From Akkermansiaceae bacterium (GTDB taxonomy: Bacteria; Verrucomicrobiota; Verrucomicrobiia; Verrucomicrobiales; Akkermansiaceae): a DNA stretch of 39,638 bases. The notes under the pieces are model-generated. The model was given only the letters and a program-made list of their open reading frames with translations, ran no database searches and was not told the origin of the DNA. The DNA lies in assembly GCA_029253285.1 (NCBI GenBank), contig JAQWZU010000138.1:1-39638 (forward strand). The letters run 5' to 3'. Below, one piece after another: positions 1 through 33,691 of this stretch. Position numbers and translations under genes: made by a program. How positions within the stretch are numbered: position 1 is the first letter of the stretch; every line of letters begins with the position of its first letter.

Positions 1-59
1 CCCCAGAGTTCCCGGTAGAGGAGATCGAGACTGTCGTAGAGTTTCGCGTTGGTTGACAT
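1..59 (-). CDS. 5' end of a probable SAM-dependent methyltransferase (partial)
   Basis: An ATG at 59-57 on the minus strand opens a frame that runs off the window start and gives 19 complete residues, beginning MSTNAKLYDSLDLLYRELWG. It starts 3 nt after the TGA of the FMN-binding gene, so the two are probably co-transcribed. The YDxxxxLYRxLWG pattern resembles the N-terminus of gamma-tocopherol/O-methyltransferase-like class I methyltransferases. No cofactor motif is inside the window, so the family assignment is tentative, whereas the presence of a gene start is fairly secure from spacing and frame. Confidence 0.45.
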   Translation of the reverse strand, partial: MSTNAKLYDSLDLLYRELW

Positions 60-18415: not shown

Positions 18416-20674
18416 CTAGCGATGCAATTCCAGGAGTCGGTTTGATTCGTTGATGAGGAAATCGATTTCCATAAATGGGTCGGCTGAGACGTCGGCCCAG
18501 AGAACGCGGCCTTTTCCATCGACGAGGAAGGTTCCGTGGAGAGGCTGGTTTTCAAAGTCATCGTGTGCGGAGAATTTCTTGAAGATCTCTTTTTGATGAT
18601 CGGAAACGATGGGGAAGGGAATATCGCCTTTTTCGTAGTTGTCTTGGCTCTTCTTGAGGTCGGCGACCTTGTCGGTAGAGATGGCCAGGATGGGGAGCTT
18701 GGCCTTTTCAAAGTCCGAGTAGCGGTCGGCCATGGCGGTGAGTTGTTCGGTGCAGTGGAGGCATCCGGCGCCGAGGTAAAAGACGAGGATGTGCGGTTCA
18801 CCGGCCATGCTGGAGCTGGAGATGTTTTTTTGGTGTTGGTCCGGAAGGTTGAAGGCAGGCGCGGCGGGAGGGGTCCAGTGCAGCGGACCGAGGGTGCCGA
18901 GATCGGGACGTGGGAGGAGATCGTCGGCGGGCTTGTGGGCTTGACGCCAGTCGGCAGGGTAGCCGAACTCCTTGGCAATCGGCGCGAGCCGTGCGAAGGG
19001 ACGGGACTTGAGGTTGACCTCGGAAGAAAAGACGCGAAGCTTTTCGAAGCCTTTTTTTGCATCCTCCTTTTTGCCCATTCGGTGGAAAAGGGTAATGGCG
19101 TTGGCGAGTGAAACGGTTTCTTTTTTATCGCCGTCGAGAACGCTCCGGGCGGCTTTCTCGGCCGCTTCCTTGTTACCGAATTGGAGTTCGCGGAGCGCCT
19201 TGAAGGTGGCGGAGCCCGAGGATTTGGCGAGTGACTCTTTGGCGGTCTTTTCGTCGTCGTTCATTTCGGCGAGATAACCGAGGAGTTCGGAGCAATCTTT
19301 TTCGAGCGACCCGATGAGGCGGCTGTATTTCTTGCCGGCTGCTGCGACGGCTTTCTTGATCTCGCCCTCCTTCTTTTTCTCTTTGGCGGCCTTTTCCTTG
19401 GCCTTCTCTTCATCGGCTTGCTTTTTTGCTTTTTCGTTGGCGAGCAGGTCTTCGACTTGATTGATGATTTGCATCAACTCCACGCGATGGCCAAGGTGGA
19501 AATTGGCGATGCCGATTAGTCTGAGCCGGGCGCGATCATGAGTCGGTTGCTTGGGCAGGGTTTCGAGCCACTGGGTATTCGAGAGTTCGAAGGTCTCCTC
19601 CCAGAGTTCAAATTTCTCAAGAGTTTTGAGGAGGTTGTTGCGACCGTATTTGTAGGAATGGGAGCGGCCTTCCAGAGTGTTGAGTTTCGGGTGACGCGGG
19701 TTGGCGAGGAGAGACTTGGCCATGGCTACGGCGGCGGGGGCATCACCAAGGTGACCGAAGTTGCGCGAGAGCCATTCGTTGTTGTGCGCGTAGTTGTGGA
19801 TTTGGTCGGGGATGAGGAAATGCTTGGCCATGTGTGCGTGGTCGACACGGGCGGAGGACTGTTGGCTGAAGACGGCATCGTGATAGCGCTTGGCCTTGGA
19901 GTAGATGTGTCCGGGCATGTGCCACATATGGGCGATGCCGGGTGCGGTTTTTCCGAGGCGGGCGGCGGAATCGAGCGCTTGCTCGTGCTTGCGGTTGTCC
20001 CAGAGGTGGATGGCGTAGTGGTGGGCGGGGTGATTGGGTTCTTTGGCAAAGATTTGCTCGAGAATGGCGTCGAGTCCGAGGTAGCTGCTGATGGGAACAC
20101 CTTTGCGGTTGAACTGCCAGCGGCGGCAAACGAGGAGGGCCTTGGCTTCGATGTCGTCGGGGTGGTTCAGAATGAGGTCTTCGTAAGCGCGGATGAAATT
20201 TTTGATGCGCTTTTTGGAGTCCTTCTCCTTTTTGTCATCGTGATAGGCGATTTCGGCGTCGAGATAGGCGCGTTCGTGAGGGGTGATTTTTAAGTTTTCT
20301 TTTTTGAGGAGTTCGGTGGCCTTGGCGATGAATTCCTTGGCACGTTTCTCGTTAGAGAAATTGGCCTGAGAGAGTCCCCAGTAGGCCATGGCGCAATTGG
20401 GATCGTGAGCGAGGATCTTACGGAAGGAACGTTCTGCTTCGTAGTACCAAAATCCGTGAAGCTGGCCAAGGCCTTGGTTGAAGTAGGCCTGGCCTTGATT
20501 CCAGGAGCTTGTGATGGGGAGGTGGACTTTTCCGGTGTCTCCGATGAGCGGGGATGCCTGGCGTGGTCCCTCGTTGAAGGCGTGGCCCTGATGGGAATGT
20601 CCTTCCTTGATCTCTGTGGGCTCTTCACCAAGAAGAAGGGAGCAAAACAGGGGCAAAATCAAAAATCGTTTCAT
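18416..20674 (-). CDS. Secreted TPR protein fused to a C-terminal redoxin domain
   Basis: ATG 20674 is chosen because it gives a signal peptide (MKRFLILPLFCSLLLG); the open frame continues 44 residues upstream as a charged, non-signal sequence. The product is 752 residues. The first ~560 contain several TPR-like helical hairpins, with the conserved HMWHMPGHIYSK region seen in PVC-group TPR proteins, and a Lys/Glu/Ala coiled segment midway. The last ~150 residues are an AhpC/TSA redoxin with CxxC-type active site GAGCLHC, then ISTDK and GTFLVDGKGRVLW. It may reduce or oxidise partner proteins in the periplasm, with the TPRs providing binding surfaces. It lies directly upstream of the haloperoxidase-like gene. 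Confidence 0.82.
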   Translation of the reverse strand: MKRFLILPLFCSLLLGEEPTEIKEGHSHQGHAFNEGPRQASPLIGDTGKVHLPITSSWNQGQAYFNQGLGQLHGFWYYEAERSFRKILAHDPNCAMAYWGLSQANFSNEKRAKEFIAKATELLKKENLKITPHERAYLDAEIAYHDDKKEKDSKKRIKNFIRAYEDLILNHPDDIEAKALLVCRRWQFNRKGVPISSYLGLDAILEQIFAKEPNHPAHHYAIHLWDNRKHEQALDSAARLGKTAPGIAHMWHMPGHIYSKAKRYHDAVFSQQSSARVDHAHMAKHFLIPDQIHNYAHNNEWLSRNFGHLGDAPAAVAMAKSLLANPRHPKLNTLEGRSHSYKYGRNNLLKTLEKFELWEETFELSNTQWLETLPKQPTHDRARLRLIGIANFHLGHRVELMQIINQVEDLLANEKAKKQADEEKAKEKAAKEKKKEGEIKKAVAAAGKKYSRLIGSLEKDCSELLGYLAEMNDDEKTAKESLAKSSGSATFKALRELQFGNKEAAEKAARSVLDGDKKETVSLANAITLFHRMGKKEDAKKGFEKLRVFSSEVNLKSRPFARLAPIAKEFGYPADWRQAHKPADDLLPRPDLGTLGPLHWTPPAAPAFNLPDQHQKNISSSSMAGEPHILVFYLGAGCLHCTEQLTAMADRYSDFEKAKLPILAISTDKVADLKKSQDNYEKGDIPFPIVSDHQKEIFKKFSAHDDFENQPLHGTFLVDGKGRVLWADVSADPFMEIDFLINESNRLLELHR

Positions 20675-20866
20675 GGCAGGTGTTTGCAGAGTCGAACTAC
20701 GCGCTGGGTGTGACTTCTTTTGCATCAGATGGCGATCTTCTTTCTTCGAAGTCGCGTCGCGGTCTTCCTTCCCAAGCGGCATCTTCCCTTCGCCAGCTTG
20801 CATCACTAAAGCATTCGGCTGCTGTAGGCGGGGTTTTAGGAATGAGGTCGTAAAACAGTAATTTTT

Positions 20867-27136: not shown

Positions 27137-27219
27137 GCCGCCGTGGCGGAATTGGTAGACGCTGTGGATTTAAAATCCATTGATCCTAGATCGTGCGGGT
27201 TCGATCCCCGCCGGCGGTA
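27137..27219 (+). tRNA. tRNA-Leu(UAA)
   Basis: The 83-nt cloverleaf has acceptor arms GCCGCCG and CGGCGGT with discriminator A and no encoded CCA. The D-arm is GGCGGAATTGGTAGACGC. The anticodon stem GTGGA/TCCAT encloses loop TTTAAAA, with anticodon TAA. A long variable arm typical of leucine tRNAs and a T-arm GCGGGTTCGATCCCCGC follow. A T6 run begins right after and may terminate transcription. It is not a selenocysteine tRNA. Confidence 0.95.
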
Positions 27220-27262: not shown

Positions 27263-27784
27263 CTATCGGCTCAGTTCGGCAATTTTTTCGAGAAGTTCTT
27301 GGGCTTGGTTTGCGGCGTCAACTTTTGGGAAGTGGTGGACGAGCTTCCCATCGCGGAAGAGGAAGGTTTCCCGGCTAGGTTTGTTGTCGGGGTGGGCGAC
27401 CTTGAAGGCTTCGCAAATTTTCCCATCGATATCCGCAAGGAGGGGGAAGGTGAGACGGAATTTGTCAGAGAAGGCCTTTTGGTCTGCCACGGTGTCCATG
27501 GAGACTCCGATGACCTGGATCTTTTTTTCGGCGAAAGTGGGCGCTGCAGCCTGCAGCGATTTGACTTGTTTGGCTCACCAGAATGTATCCGCGACCGGAT
27601 AGAAGAAGATGGCGGCCCAGGGCCCGCTGAGGGCGTATTTGAGATCGACCAGTTGTCCGGTTTGGGCGGCGGCAGTGAGTTTGGGAGTCACCCAGCCTGC
27701 GGGGCGGGATTCGACTTCTACGCGGGTGGCGCAGCTTGAGAAAAAAATGGCAAGCAAGCCGAGAATCTTCGTTATTTTCATCAT
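27263..27784 (-). CDS. Lipoprotein peroxiredoxin with in-frame TGA, probable selenoprotein
   Basis: Read through one TGA (27577-27575), this frame gives 173 residues from ATG 27784 (27781 is a tandem alternative). The N-terminus has a lipobox ending FFSSC (Cys18). The AhpC/BCP-type peroxiredoxin fold follows: WAAIFFYPVADTFW, then the TGA as residue 70, then AKQVKSLQAAAP, IQVIGVSMDT, FPLLADIDGK and SRETFLFRDGKLV. TGA takes the place of the peroxidatic Cys of the TxxC motif (Thr67-Phe-Trp-Sec70). Frame and homology are intact on both sides, and a SECIS-type hairpin follows. The only other Cys is in GKICEAF. A standard annotation would see two broken pieces. The alternative is a nonsense mutation (TGC or TGT to TGA) in a Cys enzyme. 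Role if functional: reduction of peroxides at the membrane. Confidence 0.75.
27542..27558 (-). promoter_or_regulatory. Candidate bacterial SECIS element
   Basis: On the minus strand, CGCTGCA (27558-27552), loop GGC (27551-27549) and TGCAGCG (27548-27542) form a perfect 7-bp stem. It begins 16 nt after the TGA, so the apical loop is 23 nt away and opens with G. A 4-bp lower stem (AAGT 27567-27564 with ACTT 27538-27535) can extend it across a small internal loop. These values lie inside the bacterial SECIS model as I recall it (upper stem 4-16 bp, 3-14 nt loop with an early G, 16-37 nt from UGA). Confidence 0.65.
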
Positions 27785-27799
27785 TAAGAAAACTGGATG

Positions 27800-28028
27800 C
27801 CGGCTCCACGAGACGCAATGAAAATTTAGATGCGTTCCCGAGTCGTAGGTGACAGCGACATGCTGCGAGGTGTTGAGGGGGACCGTTGTTGCCGGCCCAA
27901 GAAATCCAAACACCGGAGGCATTATTAAAAACGATTTGGAAGTTGCCTGAGGCTTCCAAGGCGTCGTTGTCGAGTTGGCAGGGGGCTAAGCTCCAAAATT
28001 TCATTGATTGGAGGTAGAGAGGGGGCAT
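27800..28028 (-). pseudogene. Possible remnant of a LamG-domain protein
   Basis: Two different minus-strand frames carry pieces that together read like a LamG domain: SGNFQIVFNNASGVWISW (frame 1, about 27955-27890) and then VPLNTSQHVAVTYDSG (frame 2, about 27880-27830), where family members have WHHVAVTYD. The frame change and lack of a full domain indicate decay. It lies directly upstream of the peroxiredoxin gene and must contain or overlap its promoter. Confidence 0.3.
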
Positions 28029-29022: not shown

Positions 29023-29577
29023 ATGTCCCAATCTGAAACAGAATCCGCCGAGGAAGACCTCCGATACGAGGCCTATATCCAACGGTTCACCCATTGTGAG
29101 CCGGACTTGCGGCGTTTTATTCGTTCCTTGCTGCCGACGTGGTCAGATGCGGACGAGGTCATGCAGCAGACCGCTATCGTGGCTTGGCGGAAGTTCGAGC
29201 AGTATGATCTCGAGACGAATTTCATCAAGTGGGCCTGCGTGATAGCACGGTTTGAAGCGCTGGCCTATCGGCGGAAAATGGCGCGGGACCGGCTGGTGTT
29301 TAGAGAGGATGTTTTTGATTTGATGGCGGATGAAGGTGAGGAGGAAATCGAGACCCGTCGGGAGGAGCATTCCGCATTAGAGGAATGTTTGGCGGCGATG
29401 CCGGACAAGCAGCGGCAGTTTATTACCCTGGCTTACACGCCGGGAATCAAGGTGAAGGAGATGGCTGAGGAGGCTGGGAGTAGTGCGGCGGCATTTTATA
29501 TGCGGCTCAAGAGGCTGCGTCATCAGTTGATGGGATGCGTGGAAGGAAAAATCTCAGAGGCAAATCAGATCTCATGA
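29023..29577 (+). CDS. ECF-type RNA polymerase sigma factor (cassette 2)
   Basis: The 184-residue protein starts at ATG 29023. Region 2 is visible in DADEVMQQTAIVAWRKFEQY and FIKWACVIARFEALAYRRK, and region 4 in CLAAMPDKQRQFITLAYTPG and SAAAFYMRLKRLRHQL. It belongs to the PVC-type ECF group that is typically followed by a FecR/LamG gene. Its TGA overlaps the next ATG (ATGA), so partner and sigma factor would be made together. It differs clearly in sequence from the sigma factor at 6088, so the two probably recognise different promoters. Confidence 0.88.
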   Translation: MSQSETESAEEDLRYEAYIQRFTHCEPDLRRFIRSLLPTWSDADEVMQQTAIVAWRKFEQYDLETNFIKWACVIARFEALAYRRKMARDRLVFREDVFDLMADEGEEEIETRREEHSALEECLAAMPDKQRQFITLAYTPGIKVKEMAEEAGSSAAAFYMRLKRLRHQLMGCVEGKISEANQIS

Positions 29578-31217
29578 AGCAGGATCAATTTTCCCAACTC
29601 TCGTCGGAGGAGCAGGAATGGCTCGAGTCCTATCTCAATGGTGAGTTGAGCCCAGAGGACTTCGAGGCGATGCAGGATAAGATGGTCGAGAGTGCGGAAT
29701 ACCGAAAGATCACGCGGCGTTATCTTTCTGTCGATCACTCGCTCGAGATGTTGGAAGGCGAGAGCCCGTTGGAGGTGGTGCCAGAAGAGAAAGTGGAGAC
29801 GGAATTTCCATCGCCGGTTCGATTGGCCGTGGCTGCGGCCGTTGCCTTTTTCTTTGGTGTTCTGGTGATGTCATGGAGGGACGACGATCAGCCGGAAGGA
29901 GCTGCTGAAGTGGAATCGCAAGAGGCGGTTTTACCATCGGCGGAGGGCTTTGCGGTGGTGAGCGGATTGTTCGGGGCAGAATGGAGTGAGGATTCTTCCG
30001 GCTATGTGGAAGGCGACACTCTGGGCCCGGAGGTTTTTCGCCTCGCGTCTGGCACGGCTGAAATCAAATTTTTCTCCGGAGCCAACATGACGGTGGAGGG
30101 GCCGGCGGAGATCTTGTTGAAGTCAGCTTGGGAAGCGGAGTGTCGTGATGGTTTGGTGCGGATGCAGGTGCCTCCGGCAGCGCGTGGATTTAAGCTTCAG
30201 GCCCCGTCGACAGAGATCATTGATTTGGGAACGGAGTTTGGTCTCTCGGTGAGAGATGGGAAGGGTCAGGTCGAGGTCTTTGACGGGGAGATTTCCATTC
30301 GTCATCAGGACGAAGAGAAGCAGTTGTTAGAAAAAGGGGCGGTCTTTTTACTGCCGGAAGATGGGTTGGCGATTGCGACGGAGAAAGGTGGAGTGTCCTA
30401 TCCCGATGCGACGAAGTTCAAAAAGATGGCGGAGGAGGAGCGTCGTAATTCGAGGGAAGCCTGGCAGGTGGAACGCGCGGAGTTGGTAAAAGACGATCGG
30501 CTATTGGCCTATTATTGCTTTGAGAATGTTGACGGGCTGAGCCTGATCCCGAATTTGGCGGAGCCACGGAATCCGGAAACGAACGGAGCGATTATTCTTG
30601 CCGAGCCCGTGGCCGGGCGTTGGGCCGGAGTGCAGTCGGCGCTGGAATTTCGCCGTCCGGGATCGAGGGTGAGGGTGAACATTCCCGGAGAATTTGAAGC
30701 CTTCACCTTTATGAGCTGGGTGCGCATCGACAGCCTCGATCGCCAGTATAATGCGCTTTTCCTTGGCGATGGCTATGAAAACGGGGAACCGCATTGGCAG
30801 ATTCGCGAAGACGGAAAGCTCATGCTCTCTGTGATGGTTGATGAAGATCGACCGAATCCGGAGTTCAAAGACAGGCGCTTTCACCGGCTGTATTATTCGC
30901 CGCCGATTTGGGACCTGTCCATGAGCGGGCAGTGGCTGCACCTCACGTCCGTGTATGATCCCGACCAGCGCCTGGTTTCTCACTTTGTTGACGGAGAGAT
31001 GGTCTCGAGGGAGGAGATCCCCGACGAATATTTGGTGAAAACCTTGCGGATTGGAAATGGTGAGATTGGAAACTGGGGTGAGCCGTTTCGAGAGGATCCG
31101 AGTTGGGCCATTCGGAATCTCAATGGGCGAATGGATGAGATTGCCATATACAAAGATGCCCTGAGTAAGAGTGAGATAGCAGAGATCTTTGCGAGGAGTC
31201 GGTCCGGTCGCCGGTAG
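29574..31217 (+). CDS. FecR/LamG membrane protein, putative anti-sigma partner (cassette 2)
   Basis: ATG 29574 overlaps the sigma stop codon and gives 547 residues; an upstream in-frame ATG at 29535 lies inside the sigma gene and is not used. An acidic helical N-terminus (1-80) is followed by one membrane segment (~85-105, AVAAAVAFFFGVLVMSW). A FecR-like domain (~125-265, EIIDLGTEFGLSV) and a LamG domain (~310-545: FTFMSWVRIDSL, GQWLHLTSVYD, NLNGRMDEIAIY) complete it. It is a probable membrane sensor that sequesters or activates the sigma factor, inferred from order and topology. Confidence 0.85.
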   Translation: MKQDQFSQLSSEEQEWLESYLNGELSPEDFEAMQDKMVESAEYRKITRRYLSVDHSLEMLEGESPLEVVPEEKVETEFPSPVRLAVAAAVAFFFGVLVMSWRDDDQPEGAAEVESQEAVLPSAEGFAVVSGLFGAEWSEDSSGYVEGDTLGPEVFRLASGTAEIKFFSGANMTVEGPAEILLKSAWEAECRDGLVRMQVPPAARGFKLQAPSTEIIDLGTEFGLSVRDGKGQVEVFDGEISIRHQDEEKQLLEKGAVFLLPEDGLAIATEKGGVSYPDATKFKKMAEEERRNSREAWQVERAELVKDDRLLAYYCFENVDGLSLIPNLAEPRNPETNGAIILAEPVAGRWAGVQSALEFRRPGSRVRVNIPGEFEAFTFMSWVRIDSLDRQYNALFLGDGYENGEPHWQIREDGKLMLSVMVDEDRPNPEFKDRRFHRLYYSPPIWDLSMSGQWLHLTSVYDPDQRLVSHFVDGEMVSREEIPDEYLVKTLRIGNGEIGNWGEPFREDPSWAIRNLNGRMDEIAIYKDALSKSEIAEIFARSRSGRR

Positions 31218-31375
31218 GACGGGTCTCCTGAAGATTTCACTTCTGGCCGGTTACACGAGCTCGAGGCGAGAAAATTTTAAATGAGAGGGGGACACATTGC
31301 TGATTCTGCGGATTTAATGATGGGGAAAAGGCCTCGCCCACATTTACCTCCTCGAATATAAAAAACACCGCAACA

Positions 31376-33691
31376 ATGAACTCTTCATTTTCAAATACCT
31401 TCTTCTTATTTCTTCTCTCGGTAGTGGCGATTTTCGCTTCGAATGCCACTGCCAAACTGGTTGCCTGGTATCCTCTGGACGAATCTCCGGCCGCGGCCCT
31501 ACCGGTGACGGAGAATGTCTCGGGAAACGATGCTTCTTTGATTGGCTACGATGCCGACCCTGCGTTCTCCTACGTCACTCGTGGTGTTTCTTCCGCGCGT
31601 CAAAATCTCGGACTGGCGTATCAGTTTGATAAAGACAACACCATTCCGGCCGGTGGTGGATTTGATCTGGGAGCCGTGGCAGCCGTGCAGCCGACGGATC
31701 AATTTACCATTGCCTTCTTTTTTCAACCCCAGACCTTCGATCCCTTTGATCGGTTTTTTGAAACCCTGGTGGGAAACAACAATGCCCAGCAGGGAATTCG
31801 TATCGACACTGGTGCTGCGGGAAACCGGGTGCGGGCCCTGGTGCGTTCGGCAGCCGCAGGCAATACCAACTTTACGCACCCGACTGTCCTGAAGAATGAC
31901 GGGACCTGGTACTTCTTTGCCTTTCGCTATGATAGCACGGGGCTGGATCCCTTCCGCCTCACCTTGATTGAAATGAATAGTGACCCGGTTGACGAGTCGG
32001 TCATTACCTCGGCAACTTCCGCCGCTCCCACTCTCAATACCGGCGCGATGTCTTTTCCTCATGAGGGAAGTAGTTTGGTGGGAGTGGAGCTTCCCGGTGG
32101 CAATAACCCCAACAACTTCGGCGGCGTTATCGACGAGTTTGCGATTTTCGACAACTCCGACGGCAATGGTGTGCTTTCGGATGCGCAGCTTCTCGGCGTC
32201 TTCAATTTCGGACCTTCGGGGGTGGAGTTAATTTCTTCGTTTACGACCGATGTGGCGTCTGCTTCTCCAGAAACTCCCGCGACCATGTCCTGGGTCGTTG
32301 ATGATTCTTTGGATTCGTTGGTGCTGGATGACGGAAACGGTGGAACGGTCGACCTTTTGCCCCTCACGACTGCGGGAGAAGGGTCGACGGCAGTCACTCC
32401 GGCCGAGTCGACGACCTACACGGTGCGCGCGGTCAAGGGAGACGCGGCCAATGTTTCCACGATTAGAATTCTTGCCGGAGCGGCTCCGGAGATCGCGAGC
32501 TTTTCATCATCAGATGGTTTAATTTCCTCTGGATCACCGGTCGATCTTACCTGGTCGGTGGCCGGAGCCGATTCGCTGAGCCTCGATCCCGGTGGCGTTG
32601 ACCTTACCGGTACCACGACCATCAATCTGACTCCGGTGGCAACGACGAATTATGTCCTCAGGGCGACCAATGGTTTTGGGACTTCGACAGCAGTGGTGTC
32701 GGTCGAGGTGATTGACGGTCCGGTGCCGGTGCATCGCTACGTCTCTTCAATCTTGGGCGAGGTTAATGAAAGCATTTGGAATGATTTGGTGGGGGATCGG
32801 GATTGGGGTTTTACTGGAGGATTACTCGGTGATCCGCTGAACCCGCCGAGTGCCAATACCAACATTATGGCCCCGTATACCACTGTCCTTACCGATGGAT
32901 CAAACGGAGCAAGTGCGGGGACCTTCCAATACAACCAATTTTCGGCAGAAATTTGGTTCCGTCCGGGAGAGCTGACCGCTGATCACCAGGTGCTTTTTGA
33001 AACAGGGGGTGGACAGAATGGGCTCGGTGCCTTGATTACGGACACGAATGTTCGATTGATTGGAAGCACCCTGAATGTGCGAAATCTCGACGTGACCATT
33101 TCCACGGGTGGTCTGAATTTGTCGGACTTCATTCAGGTGGTGATTACCAACGATGCGGATGCCGATCTGTTCACAGCATCCTTGCGCGACACCCTCGGGA
33201 ATGTTCGTTCGGTGAGCGAGGCTGCGGATGTTACCGTTGGAGGAAATGGTGCGGGCCTCTTTACCTGGGCCTCGGTCAATCTGGGGGTTTCTCCAAACGA
33301 TCTCGGTGGGCGGACCGAACTACCGGACGCCTCGCCGGCGGGCTTGACCGGATTTTCCGGTGAGATTGGCATCGTGAATATTTACGACCAGATCCTCGAC
33401 GATACAGCGATCGGCGAAGCCTTTGATCGGGTAGCGACAATTGGGCAGGCTCCGGATGGATTGGCGGTGACCGCGATTTCGTTTGATGATGATACGAACC
33501 AGCTCACTCTCACCTGGAACTCGATCAACGGGCAATCATACCTCGTCGAGTTTTCGTCGTCGCTGGAAGATGAGACGTGGTTTGAGCTGGATGACCCGAT
33601 TGTCGCTGTTAGCGATGAGACAACTCAAGTCTTCGGACTCCCACCGAACCTCAGCAAATTGTTTTTCCGGGTTGTTGTTGCTACGCCGTAG
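31376..33691 (+). CDS. Surface protein with two LamG and two Ig-like domains
   Basis: The 771-residue secreted protein has a signal peptide (cleavage near SNATA, ~26). It carries a LamG domain at about 27-285 (LVAWYPLDES, FTIAFFFQPQ, GGVIDEFAIFDN), two Ig-like domains at about 286-455 ending TTYTVRAVKG and TTNYVLRATNGFG, a second LamG at about 460-690 (FSAEIWFRPGEL, GFSGEIGIVNIYD), and a short C-terminal beta module (LTLTWNSINGQSYLVEFSSS). It probably binds or displays glycans at the surface. It lies 158 nt after the FecR/LamG gene and is a candidate target of cassette 2. No catalytic motif and no PEP-CTERM anchor are seen. Confidence 0.8.
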   Translation: MNSSFSNTFFLFLLSVVAIFASNATAKLVAWYPLDESPAAALPVTENVSGNDASLIGYDADPAFSYVTRGVSSARQNLGLAYQFDKDNTIPAGGGFDLGAVAAVQPTDQFTIAFFFQPQTFDPFDRFFETLVGNNNAQQGIRIDTGAAGNRVRALVRSAAAGNTNFTHPTVLKNDGTWYFFAFRYDSTGLDPFRLTLIEMNSDPVDESVITSATSAAPTLNTGAMSFPHEGSSLVGVELPGGNNPNNFGGVIDEFAIFDNSDGNGVLSDAQLLGVFNFGPSGVELISSFTTDVASASPETPATMSWVVDDSLDSLVLDDGNGGTVDLLPLTTAGEGSTAVTPAESTTYTVRAVKGDAANVSTIRILAGAAPEIASFSSSDGLISSGSPVDLTWSVAGADSLSLDPGGVDLTGTTTINLTPVATTNYVLRATNGFGTSTAVVSVEVIDGPVPVHRYVSSILGEVNESIWNDLVGDRDWGFTGGLLGDPLNPPSANTNIMAPYTTVLTDGSNGASAGTFQYNQFSAEIWFRPGELTADHQVLFETGGGQNGLGALITDTNVRLIGSTLNVRNLDVTISTGGLNLSDFIQVVITNDADADLFTASLRDTLGNVRSVSEAADVTVGGNGAGLFTWASVNLGVSPNDLGGRTELPDASPAGLTGFSGEIGIVNIYDQILDDTAIGEAFDRVATIGQAPDGLAVTAISFDDDTNQLTLTWNSINGQSYLVEFSSSLEDETWFELDDPIVAVSDETTQVFGLPPNLSKLFFRVVVATP

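Follow-up and report, generated by a model that had tools for sequence, protein, structure and literature searches.

The window, by which we mean the whole stretch of 39,638 nucleotides analyzed here from an Akkermansiaceae bacterium, harbors on its minus strand a gene that reads as a full-length peroxiredoxin except for one in-frame TGA, as proposed in a preliminary description (Table 1). When TGA is translated as U, residue 70 is the only U of the protein, and it stands in the context YPVADTFWU. This residue falls at the peroxidatic cysteine position (T67-F-W-U70), within the PxxxTxxU motif of the peroxiredoxin domain. With Cys substituted for U, the Pfam AhpC-TSA domain matched residues 33 to 150 (90.3 bits), and the match runs through the TGA in the same frame, which agrees with the proposed homology on both sides of the codon and the absence of a frameshift. 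The open reading frame listing contained a 115-amino-acid frame (27575-27922) ending at this TGA, in keeping with the loss of the active site that had been predicted for conventional gene calling.

Table 1. Features of the peroxiredoxin gene, in positions of the window
Feature	Position	Strand	Basis
Sec-peroxiredoxin CDS, putatively lipid-anchored	27263..27784	-	173 aa if TGA is Sec, ending at TAG; Pfam; orthologues
In-frame TGA, read as Sec70, peroxidatic position of PxxxTxxU	27575..27577	-	Translation; family alignment
Codon of Cys18, lipobox cysteine (FSSC)	27731..27733	-	Cys there in 23/23 branch members
Codon of Cys124 (+54 relative to Sec70), candidate substitute for the resolving Cys	27413..27415	-	Branch-specific column
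Codon of Arg138, conserved catalytic Arg of peroxiredoxins	27371..27373	-	Arg in 88/88 rows
SECIS-like hairpin CGCTGCA-GGC-TGCAGCG	27542..27558	-	7 bp, GGC loop; 23 nt from TGA to loop

A tRNA-Leu gene (TAA; 27137-27219, plus strand) faces the 3' end of the peroxiredoxin gene. Elsewhere in the window, positions 18416-20806 of the minus strand encode a 796-amino-acid protein in which an AhpC-TSA domain (residues 648-769) lies close to the C terminus; the long portion ahead of this domain gave no Pfam match at the threshold applied. On the plus strand (29023-33691), a sigma-70 family factor with regions 2 and 4 precedes two large proteins that contain Laminin_G_3 domains. No conserved partner gene was found: the window neighborhood was shared by genome G005 alone, G015 and G021 shared two other genes, and G024 shared none of these.

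The N terminus of the protein carries a hydrophobic signal followed by a lipobox cysteine, and the same arrangement was recognized by eye in all 23 members of its branch, referred to as family A. The lipobox claimed in the preliminary description is therefore retained as far as Cys18 is concerned, though the window sequence, FSSC, has Phe at position -3. Across the branch this position is occupied by F, L, M, G, T, or A, making the lipobox loose in some members. In some family A proteins the hydrophobic stretch and the cysteine are reached only from a GTG start, and the lipobox cysteine of L172 was taken from a separate translation. From these features we infer that the window product would be exported and lipid anchored.

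A close TGA-containing orthologue (E under 1e-47) was present in 18 of the 27 genomes of the genus, counting that of the window, and the other 17 orthologues were 49 to 88% identical to the window protein. All 18, once aligned, have TGA at the peroxidatic column. The matches in the remaining 9 genomes were all weaker and fell on a paralogue, termed family B, or on different peroxiredoxin-like genes. Because the same TGA recurs in 18 genomes, an assembly error at this codon is very unlikely. In the GTDB collection, the 17 closest relatives with a name are labeled Verrucomicrobiales, Verrucomicrobiaceae, Akkermansiaceae, Verrucomicrobiia, or Verrucomicrobiota, and one just Bacterium. The search for the wider family covered 244 genomes, at least 156 of which had a match at E up to 1e-12; 60 of the matches listed were fetched. 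Those left aside comprised, among others, five TGA-flagged places in g16 (G082, G089, G095, G101, and G131) and, for eleven genomes in the genus of the window, the family B copy. Such a flag is no proof, as the actual site holds Cys at some flagged places (G062, G137, G143, and G047). In a search of 387 genomes across the phylum, 90 had a match at E up to 1e-30, with no TGA flag outside the family. A plasmid search returned 90 records, every one under 60% identity.

We then considered the residues around the active site in a table of 88 rows, from which L072 (same gene as L011) and L187 (a near-copy of L172 from the same genome) were dropped. Family A, the window's branch, accounts for 23 rows: 18 in the genus, 3 in g11, 1 in g16, and L088. 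All 23 have Sec at the peroxidatic site, and the comparison with related genomes called for by the preliminary description gave TGA, never TGC or TGT, in this column of the branch. None has a Cys at +5, and all have Cys124, at +54. The other 65 homologues present the opposite picture, with a Cys at +5 in 64 and Cys124 in none; their peroxidatic residue is Sec in 23 and Cys in 42. A Cys at +4, with none at +5, was seen in L175 and L181 (family A, g11) and in L223, a Sec-containing relative from g9. An additional phylum-wide table of 29 rows from 27 loci, which includes some genomes already present in the 88 rows, had a peroxidatic Cys in 29/29, a +5 Cys in 28/29 (His in L252), and Cys124 in 0/29.

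A tree built without the columns of residues 70, 75, and 124 separated the 23 family A rows from the rest at a branch supported at 100/98, the program warning of long branches, including L172 and L088, so that the limits of the clade are less certain than this figure suggests. Since all 23 rows fall in one clade, the loss of the +5 Cys and the gain of Cys124 may represent a single event. The TFW motif was found in three of the four members of the window's own clade and nowhere else among the 88 rows; the fourth, in G004, has TF followed by a stop, and the other 19 family A members have TPGU. Pro63, Thr67, Sec70, Cys124, and Arg138 are all retained in the window clade. A branch that joins Sec, a lipobox-type Cys, the absence of the +5 resolving Cys of PrxQ, and a Cys at +54 looks new.

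The window genome contains a second Sec peroxiredoxin, the family B paralogue L037 (G000:C53:33174-33629, plus strand). It has Sec at the same column as the window protein and a related SECIS, and the two are 34% identical; however, L037 has TGGU, keeps the +5 Cys, and lacks both Cys124 and the lipobox Cys. Ten family B proteins of the genus were inspected; all lack a Cys at the lipobox place, two having one inside the hydrophobic stretch. By eye, these ten look like ordinary exported proteins, with an ordinary signal peptide in L037.

The window genome (G000; 4.3 Mb, 96.71% complete) encodes the machinery for selenocysteine insertion, a point on which the preliminary description had made its proposal depend. 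It has selA (490.6 bits, over the curated cutoff), selB (274.6 bits against a cutoff of 242.25), selD (373.5 bits against 125), and a tRNA-Sec (54 bits against an Rfam cutoff of 47) that ARAGORN also calls as tRNA-SeC, with anticodon TCA. Among the 27 genomes of the genus, many of them incomplete, selA was over the cutoff in 25, selB in 24, selD in 23, and tRNA-Sec in 20; the corresponding numbers among 14 control genomes were 1, 2, 2, and 5. No selB over the cutoff was found in G004, a window clade genome that is 80% complete.

The perfect 7-bp hairpin with a GGC loop that the preliminary description had reported at the expected distance from the TGA is indeed present. No such hairpin occurred in 100 shuffles of the window, even with one mismatch tolerated. 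Judged by folding energy, it is unremarkable (z 0.03; equally good folds in 93 of 200 shuffles), and the weight of the hairpin therefore rests on comparison. With the stem register, and the division of its pairs into upper and outer ones, picked after inspection of the rows, and with shuffles that do not remove relatedness, the upper stem (+20..23/+27..30) was paired in 97.7% of the cells in 44 distinct Sec rows versus 55.4% in 42 Cys rows; the Sec value was reached by 0 of 500 shuffles (mean, 89.8%) and the Cys value by 160 of 500. Each upper-stem pair was represented by two or three pair types across the Sec rows, ungapped and in register. The whole 7-pair stem of the window was paired in 85.1% (Sec) versus 41.8% (Cys), values reached by 0 and 319 of 500 shuffles, respectively. 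The outer pair +17/+33 was formed in only 18 of the 44 distinct Sec rows, so the outer pairs are not general.

In the genus, the hairpin takes a form with a 3-nucleotide bulge at the outer pairs, and UCGCUGCGGUCUGCAUU is identical in 14/14 members outside the window clade. The window clade departs from this form: the GGUCU loop is changed, the lower stem is different, and the bulge is gone, with one T-T mismatch in the stem in three of its four members. The apical hairpin of the window, CUGCAGGCUGCAG, is also found in L168, a member from another genus. For a SECIS covariance model, 11 stretches of family A were combined with 8 of family B, excluding the family A gene of the window clade but including the family B gene of G005. 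Among the 150 of 2294 first-look candidates from the window genome that were scored with it, the window hairpin ranked second (24.6 bits; rough E value, 0.008), behind the family B Sec peroxiredoxin (58 bits, partly through kinship to the G005 row). The five further matches among these 150 were weak (19.9 to 13.2 bits), and by eye none lay in a selenoprotein-like open frame. The SECIS of selD itself was absent from the model matches, so the model is no listing of the selenoproteome. Overall, the covariance model, the conservation of the stem, and the shuffles point to a SECIS hairpin shortly after the UGA, although the energy alone is not significant, and this SECIS is better defined by its relatives than by the window itself. 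A co-divergence of SelB with the altered hairpin was not supported: comparing three window clade genomes with ten others, the G020 stretch being excluded because its contig ends there, the C-terminal part of the window clade SelB had a mean identity of 0.66 to the ten others, which share 0.71 among themselves.

The codons after the TGA are also maintained. In the 103 codons downstream of the TGA, G000 and G005 show 29 base differences, 22 at third positions (P 3.4e-6), giving a dN of 0.045 and a dS of 0.324. Omega over this part was 0.27 for G000 versus G001 and 0.21 for G001 versus G005, with a range of 0.14 to 0.27 for the three pairs. These codons are thus constrained, as would not be expected if the product ended at the TGA. 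Upstream of the TGA, the constraint was weaker in the same three pairs (omega, 0.15 to 0.75), which fits a signal peptide followed by a linker.

An AlphaFold2 model, computed from 17 rows with Sec as Cys, had a mean pLDDT of 89.6 (80.8 to 86.9 for the other four models). Its eight best Foldseek matches were of the BCP/PrxQ type by title, indicating a PrxQ-like fold; the matches included the yeast nuclear thiol peroxidase, which we take to be of the same type. The best NCBIfam match of the window protein was likewise PrxQ/BCP (NF006960, thioredoxin-dependent thiol peroxidase), but its 58.3 bits are well below the curated cutoff of 140, and the protein differs from PrxQ/BCP by Sec in place of Cys, the lack of a +5 Cys, and the lipoprotein signal. 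PrxU (NF040737), presumably named after the Sec enzyme of Eubacterium acidaminophilum, is a peroxiredoxin as well, but the window protein reached only 32.5 bits against a cutoff of 270; the window gene was also far below the cutoff of PRK09437. A resolving Cys at +5 is a common PrxQ layout. The accessible text of PMC5302317 describes four PrxQ proteins in which the resolving Cys has no consistent place, and deals with the role of the conserved peroxiredoxin Arg.

Sec-containing peroxiredoxins are known in bacteria, as the preliminary description had stated. In the accessible parts of the respective papers, peroxiredoxin is listed as a selenoprotein with the motif TxxU (PMC13188914), 43 Sec-peroxiredoxin genes are given for the Sargasso Sea set (PMC1088965), a table row with partly visible column heads has the number 12 for peroxiredoxin (PMC1794560), and Sec peroxiredoxins are counted in 78 organisms (PMC5029168). 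The window protein has in common with this TxxU family (PF00578) the peroxiredoxin domain, the PxxxTxxU motif, and a bacterial SECIS after the UGA. Unlike the published proteins, it has a lipobox, the +54 Cys, TFWU instead of TPGU, and no +5 Cys, a distinction drawn from their descriptions, so that some of them may belong to the branch. No word beginning with Verrucomicrob occurs in the accessible main text of these four papers. In the open-access literature searched, none of the best matches had a title on Sec peroxiredoxins in Verrucomicrobiota, and no paper combined a lipoprotein signal peptide, selenocysteine, and peroxiredoxin.

The selenocysteine reading of the TGA is well supported because of the insertion machinery, the conservation of the TGA, the kept stem, and the selection on downstream codons, all of them read from sequence. 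We consider it very probable that the gene encodes a Sec-dependent, exported, lipid-anchored peroxiredoxin of the PrxQ/BCP type, with UGA 70 decoded as Sec; peroxidase activity would follow from the family. SelB and tRNA-Sec would decode the UGA with the help of the hairpin just downstream, and Sec70, surrounded by Pro63, Thr67, and Arg138, would attack the peroxide and become a selenenic acid. As there is no +5 Cys, this selenenic acid could be resolved either by Cys124, through a Sec-Cys bridge that may span a dimer, or by a thiol from outside the protein. We know of no such Sec-Cys bridge in any peroxiredoxin.

The second route would make the protein a 1-Sec enzyme, that is, a peroxidase without a resolving Cys in which Cys124 is structural, a sub-case overlapping the Sec-peroxiredoxin reading that we find plausible, if slightly on the doubtful side. 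1-Cys peroxiredoxins do exist, according to the accessible text of PMC5302317. The nearest solved relative by sequence, a bacterioferritin comigratory protein titled Xanthomonas PrxQ in the fold search, where it is among the best matches, has a Cys aligned with Cys124 of the window protein. The title of one solved form of this relative names a C84S mutant, and we take C84 to be its resolving Cys. A Cys at the place of Cys124 thus need not be the resolver. Against a purely structural role, Cys124 is found in every branch member and in none of the 65 relatives, exactly where the +5 Cys was lost, yet this may amount to one event in one clade. That Cys124 resolves Sec70 can be proposed from this exchange, and we tentatively put forward, while thinking it rather unlikely, a new peroxiredoxin layout in which the resolver has shifted from its +5 place in helix alpha-2 to the short helix that follows the strand at 115-117, giving an exported, lipid-anchored Sec-Cys peroxidase.

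It is improbable, in our opinion, that the window gene is a decaying selenoprotein gene, functional elsewhere in the branch but in a clade that has lost, or is losing, Sec insertion. Several features would agree with decay: the altered hairpin and the TFW motif, the long stem branch of the window clade (0.66 changes per column), and a looser whole-gene omega, which is 0.18 to 0.40 in this clade and about 1 for G001 versus G004, compared with 0.07 to 0.21 for three other family A pairs and 0.17 to 0.28 for family B in the same clade. Furthermore, the G004 copy (L011, G004:C118) has an additional in-frame stop immediately 5' of the Sec TGA, and its other unique changes, although few, are mostly replacing (7, with 1 silent). 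This copy is probably a broken gene, and intact copies are found in three near relatives of G004. Decay of the clade as a whole is, however, at odds with the constraint after the TGA among G000, G001, and G005, with the apical hairpin shared with L168, and with the preservation of all five active-site and candidate residues.

A genome-wide recoding of TGA as Trp or Cys is scarcely credible: we found no support for it, the tRNA-Sec with anticodon TCA accounts for the reading, TGA is the terminal stop of the genus orthologues L010, L014, L023, and L026, and TGA at the Sec column goes together with the hairpin. Finally, a plain pseudogene of, or a sequencing error in, a Cys peroxiredoxin, suggested only by the TGA that breaks the standard frame, can be taken as refuted by the recurrence of this codon in the genus and the branch, the Sec machinery of the genome, and the stem kept in Sec genes.

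If read in this way, Sec peroxidases would extend to Verrucomicrobia, several records being labeled Akkermansiaceae, as surface-anchored enzymes. One bacterial family would then hold three states (Cys with a +5 Cys, Sec with a +5 Cys, and Sec with Cys124 but without the +5 Cys), a natural comparison by which what Sec buys in a peroxidase becomes directly testable. Gene callers that stop at TGA would cut such genes at the active site. The selD gene of the window genome (G000:C135:17623-18552, plus strand) also has an in-frame TGA inside its match. Counting this gene, such a TGA is present in 22 of the 23 over-cutoff selD matches of the genus; the remaining match, in G026, is split, with a TGA in the other piece.
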